Origin: Luteolibacter sp. Y139
GTDB lineage: Bacteria > Verrucomicrobiota > Verrucomicrobiia > Verrucomicrobiales > Akkermansiaceae
Assembly: GCF_038066715.1 (NCBI RefSeq)
Contig: NZ_JBBUKT010000004.1
Location: 186,001 to 250,000, forward strand
Direction: 5' to 3'
DNA: 64,000 nt
Made by a program: the position numbers and the translations under genes. The notes under the pieces are model-generated. The model saw only the letters and a program-made list of their open reading frames with translations, had not been told where the DNA came from and did not search any database. Every line of letters begins with the position of its first letter. The first letter of the stretch is position 1. Positions 1 through 6,785 of this stretch are shown here, one piece after another.

Positions 1-643
1 GACGTCCGGCGATCCACAGCGCGATGAAGGCAATCACCGCGGACACGCCGGCGAGCATCCATACGCGATCATCATCTCCGGCGTGGAAGCTGCGGTAGAT
101 GGCGAGAGGGATGGTTTCCGTGACACCGGGGATGAGGCCGGCGACCATCATGGTGGCGCCGAATTCACCGAGGGCGCGGGCGAAGCCGAGCACGAGGCCG
201 GCGGCGATGCCGCGGCGGGCGAGGGGGACGCTGACGCGGGAGAAGACTTGCCATGGGGTCTTGCCGAGAGTGGAAGCGGCTTCTTCCAAGTGACGCGGCA
301 CTTCCTCGAAGGCCGTGCGGATGCAGCGGAGCAGGAGCGGGAAGGCCATGATGGCGAGGGCCAGCACGACGGCCTTCCAGGTGAAGATGATCTCAATGCC
401 AGATCGTTCTAACAGCGCGCCGAAGGGCCCTTTCTTTCCGAAGAGCTTCAGAAGCACCAGGCCGGTCACCACGGGTGGCACCACCAGTGGCAACATGACC
501 AGCGTCTCAACGAACGCCTTGCCCGGCCACTGCTTGCGGGCCAACAGCCAGCCAAGCGCGAGGCCGAAGGGCAGCGACAGGACGATCGCCGCCGCGGAGA
601 CGCCGAGCGTGAAGAGGATTAGCCTGAAATCGTCCGCCGTCAT
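1..643 (-). CDS. modB: Molybdate ABC transporter permease (3'-truncated by window edge)
   Basis: Inner-membrane permease that moves molybdate/tungstate delivered by ModA; it would pair with a ModC ATPase, expected beyond the left edge. Reading the minus strand from the ATG at 641-643 gives 214 codons (MTADDFRLILFTLG...). Hydrophobic spans are followed by the permease EAA loop (EEAASTLGKTPWQVF) and the ModB-typical GEFGAT. The sequence runs off the window, so the last helix is missing. The modA stop codon (644-646) abuts this start with no gap, so the two are co-transcribed and probably translationally coupled. Identification as ModB rather than a sulfate permease rests on the modA neighbour and the ModE-like regulator nearby. 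Confidence 0.92.
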   Translation of the reverse strand, partial: MTADDFRLILFTLGVSAAAIVLSLPFGLALGWLLARKQWPGKAFVETLVMLPLVVPPVVTGLVLLKLFGKKGPFGALLERSGIEIIFTWKAVVLALAIMAFPLLLRCIRTAFEEVPRHLEEAASTLGKTPWQVFSRVSVPLARRGIAAGLVLGFARALGEFGATMMVAGLIPGVTETIPLAIYRSFHAGDDDRVWMLAGVSAVIAFIALWIAGR

Positions 644-1372
644 TTATTCCTTCGCGAGCCCGAAGCCGCGGGCCGTGAAGATCTTCGACGCTTCTTCCGA
701 TTTCAGGAAGTCTGCAAATTTCTTTGCCTCATCCGCCTGCTTGGTGGCGGTGCAGACGGCCACCGGGTAGATGATGGCGGGGGCCTCGCCGGCCGGGACG
801 GTCCAGGCAACCTTCACCTTCTTCGAGACGGCGGCGTCGGTCTTGTAGACGATGGCGGCGTCGGCATTGCCAGCTTCGACGGCGGCGAGGGCGGCGCGGA
901 CGTTTTCGCTGCCGACGCACTTGGGGCCGATGCTTTCCCACAGGCCTTGCTTGGTGAGCCAGTTCTTGGCGTAGACGCCGGCGGGGACTGCCACGGGATC
1001 GCCGATGGAGATGCGCTTGAAGTTCGCGAGATCAGAGCCGCCGGAGACCTTGGCTTCGGATTCGTTGGGCACCACGACGACAAGTGCGTTGGTGAGGAGC
1101 TTGGTGACGTTATTCACCAGCTTGGCCTCCTCGACCTTCTTCATGTTCGCCTCGTCGGCGGAGATGAAGACATCGATGGGCGCGCCTTCCTCGATCTGGC
1201 GGGCAAGGACGTTCGATGCCGCCAGCACCGGGGTGATCTTGGTGCCGTTCGCCTTCTCATAGGCGGCACCGACTTCCTTGACGGATTCAGCGAGGCTGGC
1301 GGCGGCGGCGACGCGGAGTTCACCGGCCGCAGCGGCCAGCGAGGCGAACAGGAGAAGAAACAGGGATTTCAT
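644..1372 (-). CDS. modA: Periplasmic molybdate-binding protein
   Basis: Solute-binding component of the ModABC molybdate importer, 242 aa, the usual family size. An N-terminal signal peptide (MKSLFLLLFASLAAAAG) is followed by the family pattern LRVAAAASLAES, and then by PIDVFISAD and IGDPVAVPAGVYA, all ModA hallmarks lining the oxyanion site. It is the first gene of the modAB operon and lies downstream of the TonB-dependent receptor gene, with an 85-nt gap that contains a ModE-like dyad (1405-1428). Repression at high molybdate is therefore expected. The assignment is firm; whether tungstate is also bound cannot be told. Confidence 0.95.
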   Translation of the reverse strand: MKSLFLLLFASLAAAAGELRVAAAASLAESVKEVGAAYEKANGTKITPVLAASNVLARQIEEGAPIDVFISADEANMKKVEEAKLVNNVTKLLTNALVVVVPNESEAKVSGGSDLANFKRISIGDPVAVPAGVYAKNWLTKQGLWESIGPKCVGSENVRAALAAVEAGNADAAIVYKTDAAVSKKVKVAWTVPAGEAPAIIYPVAVCTATKQADEAKKFADFLKSEEASKIFTARGFGLAKE

Positions 1373-1404: not shown

Positions 1405-1428
1405 CGATATCACCATGAATAGATATTG
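1405..1428 (-). promoter_or_regulatory. ModE-like operator upstream of modA
   Basis: A 24-bp dyad with half-sites CGATATC and GATATTG separated by 10 bp, ending 32 nt before the modA ATG. Length and CG-flanked AT-rich half-sites match the dyads at 3426-3449 and 5298-5321, and resemble the known E. coli ModE operator (CGTTATAT...ATAACG). The site lies where a promoter would be, so it would act by repression. The role is inferred. Confidence 0.7.
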
Positions 1429-1457
1429 GAAATCATCCAGCGGTTTTCCGGTTCGAA

Positions 1458-3404
1458 TCAGAACTCGTAGCGAATGTCGCCGAAGAAGGTGCGGCCGGGT
1501 TCCGGGAAGCCTTCGTCCAGCTGCTGATTGCGATCGAGAATGTTGAGGACGCCGAAGCCGAGCTTTACGTCGCCGGGCAATTCGACCTCGGCCTTCACGT
1601 CGGCGGACGCGTAGATGCCGACGCGCTTGCCGGTGCTGGAGACCACGCGCGAGTCCGACCAGGTGAAGGACGGGATCAGGCGGAGGCGTTCCATGAGATC
1701 CAACTTCGAGAAGAGCGTCACCTCGTGCTCGGGGACGTTGATGATGCTGATTGCCGGGTTGGTGCGGTTTTCCGCGGAGATCCACGCGTAGTTGAAGCCG
1801 GCCTGGATGGTATCGGTGAATTTCGAAGCCATCGCGAACTCGAAGCCGCGGTGCTCGACCTCGCCGACATTCTGGAGCTGGAAGAGCCCGGCGCCTCCGG
1901 GAGTGAAGGCGACATTGTCGACGCGCTGGATGGCATCATCGATGCGGGAGAAGAAGAGGTTCGCTTCCCATTCGATGCGCTTGTCATTGGCCTTGCCGCC
2001 GATGCCGAGGTCGAAGTGATTGACGGTTTCAGGATCGAGGTTCGGGTTCGGGATCGCTTGGCCGAGGCGATACGAGTAGCGATCCTTGATGGTGGGGAAG
2101 CGGCTCTTTTCCGCCCAGCCGAGGTGGCCTTCAAGGCAATCGTTGAACTGCTGGCGATAGACGAGCTGCGGATTCCATGAGGAGTTCTTGTCGCCGTAGA
2201 GCGGGGCTCCGCTGTTCGTGTCGACGGCTTCTCGGATATCGCGCCAGTCGTAGCTGACGCCGCCGGTCAGGGAGCCGCCCTGGCCGAAGTCGTATTCTGC
2301 TTCGAAGCCAACGGAGGCGGTCTCGTCTTCGAAGGTGTAGGTGGGAGCGCCGAGGTTCGTCTCCTCGTGGTGATCCCGCTCGTAGTGGACCGCGGCGGCG
2401 AGGCGGGTGTTCTTCAGCGAGCGATTCTCGATGGTGGCGGAGGCGCCGGCGATCCAGTCGTCGTAGTAGGAATTGAAGGTGTAGCCCTTGGTCTGGGACG
2501 AGTAGGTCGCGTCGTCGAAGGAGCGGAGCAGGTTCTGGAAGGTGTCGTAGTGCCACTTGGTCTCCAGCGTGGTCTCGGTGCCGAGCGCGGTGCGGGTGAG
2601 GATGTAAACGGTGTCCTTGTCCCAATACGGCCATTGCCAGAAGCGTGGCGCGACCTTCTTGTCGTAGCCGGCATAGGGTGGTGTGCCCTTCTCGCCGCGC
2701 TGCGACCAGAAGCCGAGGACGTATTCATCGTCAACGGCCGGCGTCCAGCCGATGCGACCGGAGACGTGCCAGTCCTCGCTGTAGGAGTTGTTGCGGCGGC
2801 CGCCGTTCTCGGTGGGACGAGGAACGAAATCATCGGACAGCGGAAAGGCGCTGCGCTCGATCCAGGAGAGGTCGAATTGCCAGTAGAACTTTTCCTCGCG
2901 GCCGCCCGCGCTCAGGCCAGCGTCCCAGCCATCGCCGGAGAAGGCACCGGCGTGGACGGCGCCTTCCAGCTTCTCGGTGGGGCGGCGGGTGAAGACGTTG
3001 ATGAGGCCGCCGAGGGTGTTAGGTCCCGCGAGCACGGGGCTGATGCTCTTTGCCACTTCGATCTCGCCGGCTTCCGGCATCAGGAAGCGACCGAGGTCCG
3101 CGTAGCCATCGTAGGGGACATAAACGGGGATGCCATCGATGTGCAGCGGCACCTGGCGCAGGTCGAAGCCGCGCACGGTGACCATGCTCTCGGCACGTGC
3201 GCCCATCCGGGTCAGGCTGACGCCCGGCAGGAGATCCAGCGATTCCGCGAGATTGCGGCGCTCGAAATCCTGCACCTCCTCAGCGGTGATCCGGTGGGTG
3301 ATGCCGGGCTTCATGGCCTCGACGACCATTTCACCGAGTTCCGTCTCGGAAGTGGCCGCGGAAGCGGCGAGGGGAGCGAGGCAGAGAAGGGGAAGTGCTT
3401 TCAT
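1458..3404 (-). CDS. TonB-dependent outer-membrane receptor, probable molybdate/tungstate uptake
   Basis: 648-aa TonB-dependent receptor. There is a signal peptide (residues 1-17), then a plug domain (about 30-150) with AESLDLLPGVSLTR, VTVRGFDLRQVPLHIDGIPVY and GGLINVFTRRP. A 22-strand-type barrel follows, ending in FFGDIRYEF with the terminal aromatic residue expected for outer-membrane insertion. Substrates of such receptors are usually iron chelates, cobalamin or metals. Here the context is unusual: modA-modB lie immediately downstream, and a ModE-like dyad (3426-3449) ends 21 nt before the start codon. I infer an oxyanion (molybdate/tungstate) or molybdophore substrate. Alternatives are a siderophore receptor that is merely co-located. 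TonB/ExbBD are not in the window. Confidence 0.9.
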   Translation of the reverse strand: MKALPLLCLAPLAASAATSETELGEMVVEAMKPGITHRITAEEVQDFERRNLAESLDLLPGVSLTRMGARAESMVTVRGFDLRQVPLHIDGIPVYVPYDGYADLGRFLMPEAGEIEVAKSISPVLAGPNTLGGLINVFTRRPTEKLEGAVHAGAFSGDGWDAGLSAGGREEKFYWQFDLSWIERSAFPLSDDFVPRPTENGGRRNNSYSEDWHVSGRIGWTPAVDDEYVLGFWSQRGEKGTPPYAGYDKKVAPRFWQWPYWDKDTVYILTRTALGTETTLETKWHYDTFQNLLRSFDDATYSSQTKGYTFNSYYDDWIAGASATIENRSLKNTRLAAAVHYERDHHEETNLGAPTYTFEDETASVGFEAEYDFGQGGSLTGGVSYDWRDIREAVDTNSGAPLYGDKNSSWNPQLVYRQQFNDCLEGHLGWAEKSRFPTIKDRYSYRLGQAIPNPNLDPETVNHFDLGIGGKANDKRIEWEANLFFSRIDDAIQRVDNVAFTPGGAGLFQLQNVGEVEHRGFEFAMASKFTDTIQAGFNYAWISAENRTNPAISIINVPEHEVTLFSKLDLMERLRLIPSFTWSDSRVVSSTGKRVGIYASADVKAEVELPGDVKLGFGVLNILDRNQQLDEGFPEPGRTFFGDIRYEF

Positions 3405-3425
3405 CGTGGGGGACGAAAGCGGGAT

Positions 3426-3449
3426 CGTTATATTTCTAAAAGTATAACG
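3426..3449 (-). promoter_or_regulatory. ModE-like operator upstream of the TonB-dependent receptor
   Basis: The best of three similar dyads: perfect half-sites CGTTATA and TATAACG separated by 10 bp, 21 nt upstream of the receptor start codon. It matches the remembered ModE consensus closely. The flank on the right side (to about 3488) resembles the flank of the dyad at 5298-5321. Confidence 0.78.
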
Positions 3450-3488
3450 AGCGTCATCCCGGCCCGCGGTGATGAATTCGCTTCATCA
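3426..3488. repeat. Duplicated operator/modE-3'-end block, copy 1
   Basis: This stretch aligns with 5298-5360: the 24-bp dyad, then GCGTCAT(C/T)CCGGC, then GATGAATTCG and CTTCATC/CTCATC, with small indels. In copy 2 the right half is the coding end of the modE-like gene. Here it is non-coding, so it looks like a remnant of a segmental duplication. Confidence 0.6.
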
Positions 3489-3499
3489 TGGCTAGAACG

Positions 3500-4750
3500 C
3501 TATTGAGCGTTTTGGAGAAATGCCTCACGGGCCTCGGGGAGGGTTTCATTGAGGATAGCGAGGATCTTCCGGCGTTCCTCGGGTTCCAGGTAGGCGTAAC
3601 GTTCCCCGGCTGTGCCCCCCTGCAAGGCGGTGTGAAGGCGCTCGAAGATCAGTGTTTTGAGCGGGGAAGGCAGGGCTGAGAATGACTCCGAATAGATCAG
3701 GAAGCTGCAGCGATTGGCGAACAGGCGGTCGCTGTTGGAGAAGTCCTTGAGGGAATCGCCGTCGCTGGTGCGCGGAGTGTTGGAGGAAAACGCTTCGCGG
3801 AAGGTCTCGCTGATTTCGATGCCGCCTGGCAGGGGCGCGGCACCTCTAAACAGCAGGTGATCGACGACTTCATCGGCGATGCTAGCGAGGGGAGATTGCG
3901 TCGCTTCCGGATCGGCTGCCGCTTCCATCAGCGCGCGGCGGGAGCGATGGGACGCGCGCGTGAGGACATTGTGCATGGTCACCTGATGCTGGAAGACGAG
4001 CAGCGCGCCGGCATCGCTGGTGGCGGCGAGGTATTTCGAGGTGTCGAAGAACTCGGTGAGATCGGTGGGACGTATGGGGCTCGGGGTTGGGTTTGGCTGG
4101 TTGTTGAAAGCATTGCCGAGATGATCGGCCATGCCGGTGTAGCCGGTCACATACCAGCCACCCCAACGCTGCGCGAAGGGTGTGGCGTCATCGGTGAGTT
4201 GGAAGGCCTGGCCCGCCACGGTCTCGCCGCGCTCGGTCGCTGCGACGCTGCGCGCGATCAAGGACGGGATCTCGCGGCCGGTTTCGCCGCCGTGACAGCG
4301 CAGGCACTCGGTTTCCCGCACGAAGGTCCGGCGGTCATTGCGCGCGTCCTGTGGATCGAGGGAGTAGTAGATGGGCCCGAGTTCGGCATCGATCGAGGCA
4401 ACCTCAATGAGTCCACCGGGCATCCAGCCGACGTAGATCGAGTCGGAGAAATACAGGGCCCGCGGATTGCGAGGATCGATCAGTGAGCCCTGCAGGCTGG
4501 TCTTGGAGAAGACGACGATCTGGCTTTCGACGGGGACGTTGAGTTCCTGCAGGACGGCCCGGAGGATCTCGGCATCGGTGCCTTTGAAGGAGACTTCGTG
4601 AGCTTCGATTTTTTTCAGGAGGCGCGCGACGGCGTCGTCCGGCTTGCGGCTGGAATACTGGATTGGTGGCAATTCATAGGCTGACTTCCGGGTCTGTGCA
4701 TTGCCTGCGGCGAGCGATGCGGCCAGGAAGCAGAAGAGGACGCGTTTCAT
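3500..4750 (-). CDS. Secreted mono-haem c-type protein of unknown function
   Basis: 416 aa with a signal peptide (MKRVLFCFLAASLAAGNAQ) and one haem-binding motif CLRCH at residues 149-153, so it should be a periplasmic c-type cytochrome. The regions around the motif (DPQDARNDRRTFVRETECLRCHGG, split by me into short motifs: LDPQDARND, TFVRETE) and the later HQVTMHNVLTRASH and RCSFLIYSESF strings recur in a conserved uncharacterised planctomycete/verrucomicrobial family, as I recall it. It starts 9 nt after the stop of the sulfite-oxidase-fold gene, so the two form an operon under the dyad at 5298-5321. I infer an electron-transfer partner for a periplasmic enzyme; no substrate can be named. 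A hairpin (3496-3511) overlaps the stop codon. Confidence 0.82.
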   Translation of the reverse strand: MKRVLFCFLAASLAAGNAQTRKSAYELPPIQYSSRKPDDAVARLLKKIEAHEVSFKGTDAEILRAVLQELNVPVESQIVVFSKTSLQGSLIDPRNPRALYFSDSIYVGWMPGGLIEVASIDAELGPIYYSLDPQDARNDRRTFVRETECLRCHGGETGREIPSLIARSVAATERGETVAGQAFQLTDDATPFAQRWGGWYVTGYTGMADHLGNAFNNQPNPTPSPIRPTDLTEFFDTSKYLAATSDAGALLVFQHQVTMHNVLTRASHRSRRALMEAAADPEATQSPLASIADEVVDHLLFRGAAPLPGGIEISETFREAFSSNTPRTSDGDSLKDFSNSDRLFANRCSFLIYSESFSALPSPLKTLIFERLHTALQGGTAGERYAYLEPEERRKILAILNETLPEAREAFLQNAQ

Positions 4751-4759
4751 GACGCCCGC

Positions 4760-5254
4760 CTATTTGGCCAAGGAGACGAGCTCGATCGAAACGACCTGGC
4801 GGCAGGAACGTGCGCCTCGCTTGTCGCCGGGAGTGATCACGCGGAGAGGGGCGGCGGATGGCGGGAGGATTTCGCCGTTTTCCTTGTCGGCGAGGAGGAT
4901 GGTGCGGTTGCTGAAGTTCTCATCGAACTCCGCGAGCGAGAAGAGCACGGCGTAGTTGTCCTTGCAGCGGATGATCACGCCAACCATCAGGCCACCTCCG
5001 CGCATCTTGTCGCCCAGCGGTGCGTCGACCTTCGCGAGAAGCTCGCGCATCGCCACGCCTGAGTAGCGGCGCTCGGGTTCATCGCCTTGCTCGGGTACGG
5101 TCACTTCGGTATGGGGCAATGCGGCGAACTCGGCTTCTGTCAGGGTGATTGTCTTTTCACCAAAGCGGACGGTGAGAACCGGTTCGGCGGCGCGGAGGAC
5201 CGAGCCGATCGAAAGAAAGAGCAGGACGAGTGGAAGGATGAGGCGCTGGTGCAT
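4760..5254 (-). CDS. Secreted sulfite-oxidase-fold (molybdopterin-binding-like) protein
   Basis: 164 aa: a signal peptide (MHQRLILPLVLLFLSIGSVLRA) and a small domain resembling the oxidoreductase molybdopterin-binding (SUOX) fold. Recognisable positions are YSGVAMRELLAKVDAP, the DNYAVLFSLAEFD string matching the usual DGY...f..el, ILLADKENGEILP and APLRVITPGDK. The cysteine that ligates Mo in true sulfite oxidases is not evident; the only cysteines are in IIRCKDNY and RSCRQV. Binding of the full cofactor is therefore doubtful, and the family has many cofactor-free members. First gene of a two-gene operon with the haem protein; a ModE-like dyad lies 43 nt upstream. The name describes the fold only. 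Confidence 0.82.
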   Translation of the reverse strand: MHQRLILPLVLLFLSIGSVLRAAEPVLTVRFGEKTITLTEAEFAALPHTEVTVPEQGDEPERRYSGVAMRELLAKVDAPLGDKMRGGGLMVGVIIRCKDNYAVLFSLAEFDENFSNRTILLADKENGEILPPSAAPLRVITPGDKRGARSCRQVVSIELVSLAK

Positions 5255-5297
5255 GGCAGGAATGAAATCGCGTTCGCCATGGATAGTGGATCATCCT

Positions 5298-5321
5298 CGA
5301 TCTATTTGCGAAAGGATATCG
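5298..5321 (-). promoter_or_regulatory. ModE-like operator upstream of the sulfite-oxidase-fold gene
   Basis: A 24-bp dyad, half-sites CGATCTA and GATATCG with a 10-bp spacer, 43 nt before the start codon at 5254 and 15 nt after the modE-like stop. It shares length, end bases and central T/A tracts with the sites at 1405 and 3426. It is the most degenerate of the three. Confidence 0.6.
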
Positions 5322-5360
5322 GGCGTCATTCCGGCGTCAGGAGGATGAATTCGTCTCATC
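5298..5360. repeat. Duplicated operator/modE-3'-end block, copy 2
   Basis: Counterpart of 3426-3488. In this copy the segment 5337-5360 encodes the C-terminus of the modE-like protein (DETNSSS and stop). Confidence 0.6.
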
Positions 5361-5699
5361 GCCTGCGAGGAGCCGCCGCATTTTTCGCAGCACCGGGGAG
5401 CTGGCCTTTTCGGCGGCGGCCACGGCTTCGTGATAGAGCGCGAGCACCTTGCGGCCGGTGTCGGTGAGCGCTGCGCCGCCTTGTTCCTTGCCGCCGCGCT
5501 GGAGGGAGACCAGCGGCTCGCGGAATCGTTCGTTGAGGCCCTTCACCATTTTCCATGCCTTCATGTAGGACATTTCCATTTCCCCGGCGGCGGCTTGGAG
5601 GCTGCCGAGGGCGTCGATCTTTTCCAGCAACTCGGCCTTGCCGGGGCCGAAGGAGAGTTCGCCGGAGAGCAGGAGGCGGATCGGGCGGTCATCGGGCAT
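5337..5699 (-). CDS. modE: ModE-type regulator, DNA-binding domain only
   Basis: 120-aa regulator with the ModE/LysR-like winged helix-turn-helix: LLEKIDALGSLQAAAGEMEMSYMKAW (in pieces: IDALGSLQAAA, MSYMKAWKMVKGLN), then the wing LQRGGKEQGGAALTDTGRKVLALY. The MOP (molbindin) sensor domains of the 262-aa E. coli protein are absent, so any molybdate sensing must occur otherwise. I chose the ATG at 5697-5699, because an upstream TTG (5735) adds only 12 unlikely residues. GGAG sits just before this ATG. The gene is followed by an operator-bearing gene on the same strand and is adjacent to the whole Mo uptake cluster. Repressor of the three dyads is the natural inference. Confidence 0.88.
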   Translation of the reverse strand: MPDDRPIRLLLSGELSFGPGKAELLEKIDALGSLQAAAGEMEMSYMKAWKMVKGLNERFREPLVSLQRGGKEQGGAALTDTGRKVLALYHEAVAAAEKASSPVLRKMRRLLAGDETNSSS

Positions 5700-5749: not shown

Positions 5750-6785
5750 ATGGATTATCGCGAGCACGCCATCAACCGGGACTGGTCCGCGGAGGGCAAG
5801 ATCGACTTGCTGCGGCAGATGATGCGGATCCGGCGATTCGAGCAGCGGGCCTTGCACTACTACAACGGAGGCAGAATTGGCGGCTTCCTCATCCTGAGCA
5901 TCGGGCAGGAATCGGTGTCGGCGAGCGTACGATCTCTGATGGGACCCGAGGATCACGGGATCAGCGGGCCATGCCATTGCGGCGGGCCTGCCAATGGGAG
6001 CGGGGATGGCAGAGCTTTTTGGAAAGACCAATGGCTGCTCGAAAGGGAAGGGCGGGATGTTTTCTTTCTACCATCCGCTGGGGAATCACTGGGGTTGCCA
6101 TGCAACTGCCGCCGGGCAGACGCCTCTGGCGGCAGGGCTCGCCTTTGCGCTCAAGCAACGGGAGATCGCCGGGGCGGTGGTGTGTTTCCTGGGTGATGGT
6201 GCGGTGAATCAGGGCGTGTATCACGAGTCGCTGAATCTTGCCGGTTTGTTCGGGTTGCCGGTGGTCTATCTGATCGAGAACAACGGGTACGCGATGGGCA
6301 TGTCGGTGTCGCGTTCATCGCGCTTCAAGGAATGCCTTGCCCGGCGCGCTGAAGGATACGACATCGATTGGGACAGATGCGGCGATGGGGATATCTATCA
6401 GCTCCGCGCGAAGGTCTGGACGGCGCTGGAACGAGCGCGGCGCGAGAGGCGGCCGACGGTGCTGGAGGTGGAGACGTATCGCTACTACGGCTTCACGGTG
6501 GCGGACGCGAATGCCAAGAAGTATCGGACTGTCGACGAGATCGAGGAGCGGAAGAAGCGGGATCCGCTGAGGCTTTGGCGGCAGCACTTGCTTGCCGAAG
6601 GGATTCTCAGCGAAGCGGCTGCGGAGGAGATCGATTTGCGGGCGAAGGATGAGGCGAGCGAGGCGGCGAAGTTTGCGGAGGCGGGAGAGGCTCCGACGGT
6701 CGCGGAAATCGTTCGCGATGTTTATTGGGAATCCGATCACGATACCGAGGCCTCGCGGATCGGGCGCCATTTCTTCGGTGAGTAG
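5750..6785 (+). pseudogene. pdhA: TPP-dependent dehydrogenase E1 alpha subunit (pyruvate dehydrogenase type), frame disrupted
   Basis: The N-terminal part reads from ATG 5750 (MMRIRRFEQRALHYYNGGRI, IGQESVSASVRSLMGPEDH). The C-terminal part continues in the +1 frame (GHAIAAGLPMGAGMAELFGK, then the TPP motif GDGAVNQG...VVYLIENNG, and ANAKKYRTVDEIE) to the stop at 6783-6785. Both halves belong to one E1 alpha chain of about 345 aa. Between the DH of the first half and GHA of the second only 10 nt are present, where the family (from memory) has about eight residues, so a net loss of about 14 nt around 5957-5966 is likely. No E1 beta or E2 gene follows; it ends just before a convergent LysR gene. 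Either a real pseudogene, a decayed paralogue, or an assembly error. Confidence 0.8.

Follow-up and report, generated by a model that had tools for sequence, protein, structure and literature searches.

Molybdate is generally thought to pass the outer membrane via porins. The locus described here lies entirely on the minus strand of a 64-kb stretch of DNA (the window, analysed over its whole length) from positions 186001–250000 of contig C4 in a host genome of 7.1 Mb, and it places the gene for a TonB-dependent outer-membrane receptor beside genes for molybdate transport. The question it raises is what such a receptor would import and how it would be controlled. An initial annotation had proposed that three 24-bp dyads define a local ModE-type regulon that includes the receptor. 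Our preferred reading, to which we assign a probability of about 0.72, is that the locus encodes a TonB-dependent system that takes up molybdate or a complex of molybdenum, is repressed by a ModE-type protein and feeds ModA. The features are collected in Table 1; modB runs past the start of the window and its full ORF occupies 5975–6643 of a fetched stretch that extends further (L004). Searches of the window against Rfam (including the Moco riboswitch) and for tRNAs gave no match, and neither did a sigma-70 promoter scan, the model for which is uninformative in these phyla. On the plus strand at 5750–6785 a pyruvate-dehydrogenase E1-alpha-like gene is apparently split over two frames near 5960–6000 (a frameshift or a pseudogene); a second E1-alpha-like copy, 66% identical, is found at C16:7049–7821 of the host genome.

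Table 1 Genes and predicted regulatory sites of the cluster, with positions in the window
Feature	Position	Strand	Basis or remark
ModE-type winged-HTH protein, 120 aa, DNA-binding half only	5337..5699	-	TIGR00637, 2ijl, 1o7l
Site C, diverged 24-bp ModE-type dyad between modE-like stop and SO-fold gene	5298..5321	-	Probable duplicate of site B
Secreted small sulfite-oxidase-fold (SO-fold) protein, 164 aa, PruR-like	4760..5254	-	PF00174
Secreted protein, 416 aa, CLRCH (c-type haem) motif	3500..4750	-	Without Pfam or NCBIfam family
Site B, near-perfect 24-bp ModE-type operator (predicted) of receptor	3426..3449	-	PWM rank 1, conservation
TonB-dependent outer-membrane receptor, 648 aa	1458..3404	-	PF00593, PF07715
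Site A, weak ModE-type dyad before modA	1405..1428	-	PWM rank 3, shuffle 29/20,000
modA, molybdate-binding protein	644..1372	-	TIGR01256 189.7 bits, over cut-off
modB permease, 222 aa, from 643 past window start	1..643	-	ORF, orthologue adjoining in relatives

The three dyads were confirmed in position and sequence, as was their location 21–43 nt upstream of start codons. Site A, CGATATCACCATGAATAGATATTG, ends 32 nt before that of modA (1372), site B, CGTTATATTTCTAAAAGTATAACG, 21 nt before that of the receptor (3404) and site C, CGATCTATTTGCGAAAGGATATCG, 43 nt before that of the SO-fold gene (5254). All are 24 bp long, but they are less similar than the initial annotation had implied, the outer seven bases pairing (by eye) at 7/7 positions in B, 6/7 in A and 5/7 in C. 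The pattern CGNTAT-N12-ATANCG is matched at 10/10 letters by B and at 9/10 by both C and A, and the stricter CGWTAT-N12-ATAWCG at 12/12 by B. The best site had been likened to the E. coli ModE operator, and B does share the outer bases and the spacing of the published consensus, CGNTATATA-N6-TATATANCG; the core of the receptor dyads likewise equals this consensus, ATCGNTATATA-N6-TATATANCGAT (PMC545781).

For a symmetric weight matrix, 39 sites that precede related receptors served as the training set, all from other genomes and none from the window. Over all positions of the 64 kb it gives B, C and A the first three ranks at 36.4, 18.1 and 9.9 bits, the fourth being at 4.0. The training sites were gathered with CGWTAT-N12-ATAWCG, a pattern that fits the published E. 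coli consensus and also resembles the window sites, and the rank of A is therefore not fully independent; with a matrix from Verrucomicrobia only, the three rank 1, 2 and 7. When each intergenic region was shuffled 20,000 times the observed best score was reached 0 times for B, once for C and 29 times for A (p ~0.0015). The whole host genome was scanned with IUPAC patterns and with a sequence-only covariance model of 30 sites, again none from the window. The model recovered B as its only match at E ≤ 1. The loose CGNTAT-N12-ATANCG with one mismatch occurs at 79 places in the 7.1 Mb, too many for a regulon to be inferred from it, and this was dropped. From the ranks, the shuffles and the genome scan we regard B as secure, C as well supported and A as plausible only, as ModE-type dyads predicted from sequence. 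A search for an autoregulatory dyad before the modE-like gene gave none.

Conservation separates the sites further. In five relatives (four of the same genus, one of the same family) the gene order is modE–dyad–receptor–SO-fold–modA–modB; a modE-like orthologue adjoins the receptor gene on its upstream side in loci L014–L019 and L021. Four of these relatives have a 24-bp dyad 15–25 nt before the receptor gene. In the fifth (L017, genome G003) the site, CGATATTCTTTAAAAAAACATATCG, is 25 bp long, its central A-run having one base more, and it precedes the receptor by 47 nt. Half-sites covary before orthologous receptors, being CGTTAT/ATAACG in some and CGATAT/ATATCG in others, and positions 3 and 22 pair in 42 among 48 distinct sites where shuffling expects 18.7; the use of two palindromic patterns is a source of bias at positions 2 and 23 and of additional G–C cases at 3 and 22, while within the CG class W–W mismatches are permitted yet rare. 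Conservation upstream of orthologues had been set as the test of the regulon, and alignment with the relatives' motifs bears it out strongly for B, with its matched half-site changes. No counterparts of A or C were found before modA, modB or the SO-fold genes of the relatives. Their modA and SO-fold genes follow the receptor gene in one operon that has B as its single site, which explains why A is weak and not conserved. The idea of a local ModE-type regulon stands, and is strengthened for the receptor, but the sites are unequal, and three independent operators of equal support are not borne out, C being an apparent duplicate of B.

The origin of C can be followed in the surrounding DNA. A segment of about 65 nt that takes in the end of the modE-like gene and all of C aligns with the stretch upstream of B with a score of 30 (best of 300 shuffles, 19.5), and the 3′ end of modE (GATGA..CGAATTCATC) is present twice in the window. 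Judged from this alignment, C arose by duplication of B together with the modE-like 3′ end and has since diverged. The receptor-facing side of B is like that of the relatives, and the simplest reading is therefore that a cassette of the SO-fold and 416-aa genes entered between the modE-like gene and the receptor, leaving an operator copy on each side. Relative to B, both members of the 3/22 pair are changed in C and still pair; one half-site position is broken. The SO-fold gene that the relatives carry between receptor and modA is missing here, its product being 35–38% identical to the window protein now encoded upstream, and A sits in the resulting 85-nt gap before modA. Homology of A to B or C outside the dyad was considered and rejected as not significant (scores 13.5 and 17.5; shuffled maximum near 19). 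The 416-aa protein, whose gene separates the modE-like and receptor genes in the host lineage, has homologues in 98 of 260 genomes of the bacterial family; the SO-fold, receptor and modE-like genes are absent from the short flanks of all 29 homologues fetched.

The 120-aa protein had been described as ModE-like, and it does have the N-terminal winged HTH of ModE, although it corresponds to the DNA-binding half only. It matches TIGR00637 with E 2.3e-19 and 69 bits, below the curated cut-off of 98.5, and phmmer relates it to PDB 2ijl (E 2.4e-17) and to E. coli ModE, 1o7l (E 5.7e-8). Profile searches gave no match to a TOBE/Mop domain in it, and it is therefore classed as a ModE-type DNA-binding protein rather than a full ModE. 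No PF03459 TOBE domain was found in the host genome or the five relatives by a search that was positive in 12 of 14 reference genomes used as control, and no ModC scored over its curated cut-off in the host (G000) or in relatives G011, G009, G015, G003 and G041, despite modA and modB beside the receptor. The regulator is restricted, within the genus, to the five receptor-bearing genomes, whereas moaA scores above its cut-off in 17 of 18 members; the system is therefore an accessory module, in a genus where molybdenum cofactor synthesis looks general from gene content. As in the E. coli ModE repression of modABC, a homologous HTH is paired with a 24-bp operator of the same outer bases and spacing (PMC545781); unlike it, TOBE domains were found neither in the protein nor in the host genome, and the target is an outer-membrane receptor. 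The single-domain ModE of Desulfovibrio and Desulfotalea is likewise a DNA-binding domain alone with molybdenum sensing unexplained, but two Desulfovibrio species use a CGGTCACG-N14-CGTGACCG dyad where the dyad here is of the E. coli type (PMC545781). Some Flavobacterium loci (L054, 3786–4187, and similar ones) have, close to the receptor gene and between those for ModA and ModB, a gene for a 134-aa TOBE-only (Mop-like) protein; together with the HTH protein this product would constitute a ModE split into molybdate-binding and DNA-binding proteins.

The receptor has the plug (PF07715) and predicted barrel (PF00593) of a TonB-dependent receptor, and LGEMVVEA near its N-terminus resembles, by eye, a TonB box. 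Its AlphaFold model (pLDDT 86) is nearest in fold to OprC (TM ~0.8), and OprC and catecholate-siderophore receptors, the nearest solved receptor structures, are ~16% identical, a relationship of fold that does not give the ligand. No NCBIfam model scored over cut-off. The motifs IPVYVPYD and W-K/Q-W-P-x-W-D and ~70 invariant columns in an alignment of 40 diverse members mark it, by sequence, as a member of a TonB-receptor subfamily without a name in the family libraries searched; among named relatives the best is that of Haloferula sp. BvORR071. A scan of genome contigs gave 362 related stretches, of which the best 80 are mostly from Verrucomicrobiota, Bacteroidota and Proteobacteria, with few from other groups. 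These 80 closest, many of them Flavobacterium, are the sample, comprising 87 non-redundant loci and 48 distinct sites, and the locus counts that follow are for this reason not independent.

Between −400 and +330 of the receptor ORF start, a CG-type dyad of at least 11/12 letters is present in 41 of the 87 loci, against 0.41% of dinucleotide shuffles; the reversed pattern is in none and other spacings are in 0–2 loci each, the signal appearing only at length 24. CAGTAT-N12-ATACTG was found in a further 25 loci, all Flavobacterium-type and again only at 24 bp, so that overall 66/87 loci have a 24-bp dyad at the receptor 5′ end and in 21/87 none was found. Some Flavobacterium (L051, L057, L047, L059, L066 and similar) have tandem dyads of this type ~65–70 bp apart upstream of the receptor. 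The fetched flanks contain a ModE-type HTH gene in 52–60 of 87–89 loci, an SO-fold protein in 61/89, ModA in about 18–20, and an ABC ATPase and a di-haem cytochrome peroxidase in 19 each; 23 dyad-bearing loci have no ModE-type gene in the fetched flank. In eight of nine scanned genomes every match at E ≤ 1 falls within the receptor locus, preceding either the receptor gene or one beside it, and in Pedobacter the dyad lies between modE and a CCP/MauG–receptor–SO-fold operon. In Runella zeae (L167, site at 1501) an unlinked dyad, CGTTATATATTTGGGGATATAACG, lies ~15 nt upstream of a gene for a TauE/SafE-family permease, possibly a molybdate permease.

The SO-fold protein, predicted to be secreted, gave a confident AlphaFold model (pLDDT 91.7) that Foldseek relates to PruR (7kom, E 1.5e-9), with Z-scores of 18.1 to sulfite oxidase and 16.3 to PruR 7rkb. 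It lacks the Cys ligand of sulfite oxidase, a Moco enzyme: there is no Mo-ligand Cys before G66 in the window protein and none conserved across 61 SO-fold proteins. The equivalent of PruR Tyr104 is invariant in the family (Y101), and the column of Trp160 is mostly Arg, as in the window protein, with Trp in some Chitinophaga. PruR, too, has no Mo-ligating Cys (PMC13259868). The protein thus resembles PruR as a small secreted SO-fold protein with the invariant Tyr and differs from it at Trp160 and in its genetic partner, a TonB receptor rather than a DcpA or DTB regulator, neither of which was found among the frequent neighbour families of the receptor loci. The recurrent neighbours of SO-fold genes are the TonB receptor, the ModE-type HTH, ModABC and the cytochrome peroxidase. 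Given the PruR-like fold, the missing ligand Cys, the invariant Tyr and the Arg at Trp160, pterin binding is possible but unproven.

The predicted operator, the gene neighbourhood, their conservation and the operator duplication upon rearrangement of the operon in the host lineage can be read directly from the DNA. In the mechanism we propose, the 120-aa protein would bind the CGWTAT-N12-ATAWCG dyad just before the receptor gene and, while the molybdenum supply is adequate, repress that gene. Scarcity of molybdenum would allow the receptor to be made, and TonB energy would then drive molybdate, or with greater likelihood a complex of molybdenum, into the periplasm. There the PruR-like protein may help to bind or release the imported compound, and ModA/ModB would then pass molybdate on. 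A broader formulation, that a phylum-spanning receptor family imports chelated or pterin-bound molybdenum under ModE-type control, with a PruR-like periplasmic partner and a sensor without any known molybdate-binding domain, is tentative and on balance somewhat unlikely.

The idea that B alone is a real operator, serving the receptor and the genes reached by read-through, with A and C chance or decayed sequences of no function, falls only a little short of an even chance: the missing counterparts of A, its seventh place with the Verrucomicrobia matrix and its absence from the genome-wide matches speak for it, as do the age and the broken half-site position of the duplicate C, while the top ranking of all three in 64 kb, each before a gene of the same pathway, and the paired change at positions 3 and 22 of C speak against it.

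The identity of the cargo admits two further explanations. The receptor might import a pterin or molybdopterin-type compound for the PruR-like protein, as cofactor salvage or a pterin carrier, with molybdenum control reflecting only cofactor demand. The closeness of the partner to pterin-binding PruR structures, the invariant Tyr (Y101) and the want of a conserved Mo-ligating Cys, as in PruR (PMC13259868), would fit; we nevertheless think this unlikely, as the presence of ModA in the operon points to molybdate, Arg predominates in the Trp160 column, and PruR has been described as too narrow to hold the cofactor itself (PMC13259868). It is more doubtful still that an ordinary siderophore receptor was captured beside mod genes and came under molybdenum control through Fe/Mo cross-talk, catecholate siderophores also binding molybdate. 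Catecholate types are indeed among the nearest solved receptors, and catechol molybdophores are known in Azotobacter. An iron/molybdenum TonB–ModA cluster has also been proposed in Acidithiobacillus ferrooxidans (PMC2631029). Against this, the operators found are ModE-type (by a search that used ModE-type patterns alone), and across phyla the receptor stays associated with ModE and with the SO-fold protein.

The ModE-repressed uptake system that we favour has partial parallels. NikR-linked TonB-dependent receptors, for example in Caldithrix, are also outer-membrane receptors under a metal-specific regulator, there for nickel with NikR, here for molybdenum with ModE (PMC5317091). The ModA–IcmP route of Pseudomonas aeruginosa is likewise a proposed outer-membrane step for molybdate, although IcmP, which depends on the H2-T6SS, belongs to the insulin-cleaving metalloproteinases and not to the TonB receptors (PMC8602904, PMC11734730). 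The Acidithiobacillus cluster also has TonB receptors beside a ModA-like binding protein, although among siderophore/iron and nif genes, and the accessible portion of that account notes no ModE operator (PMC2631029). This proposal and the Pseudomonas route (PMC8602904) are the nearest published. Our literature search found no paper joining a TonB receptor to ModE; an earlier description is still possible.

The main interest of the locus, as a variant of the ModE regulon, lies in the receptor family and the missing sensor. The family, a TonB-receptor subfamily that the searched libraries leave without a name, would gain a likely substrate class, and the long-assumed molybdophore or molybdate receptor a concrete gene for testing; the sensor raises the question of how molybdenum is sensed by a ModE without a molybdate-binding domain. 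The pairing of TonB receptor and ModE-type switch recurs in three phyla or more, which suggests that in many bacteria molybdenum, in some form, is taken through the outer membrane by active transport and not by diffusion. If this is true, active outer-membrane import of a molybdenum compound would be common in molybdenum-poor soils and waters.
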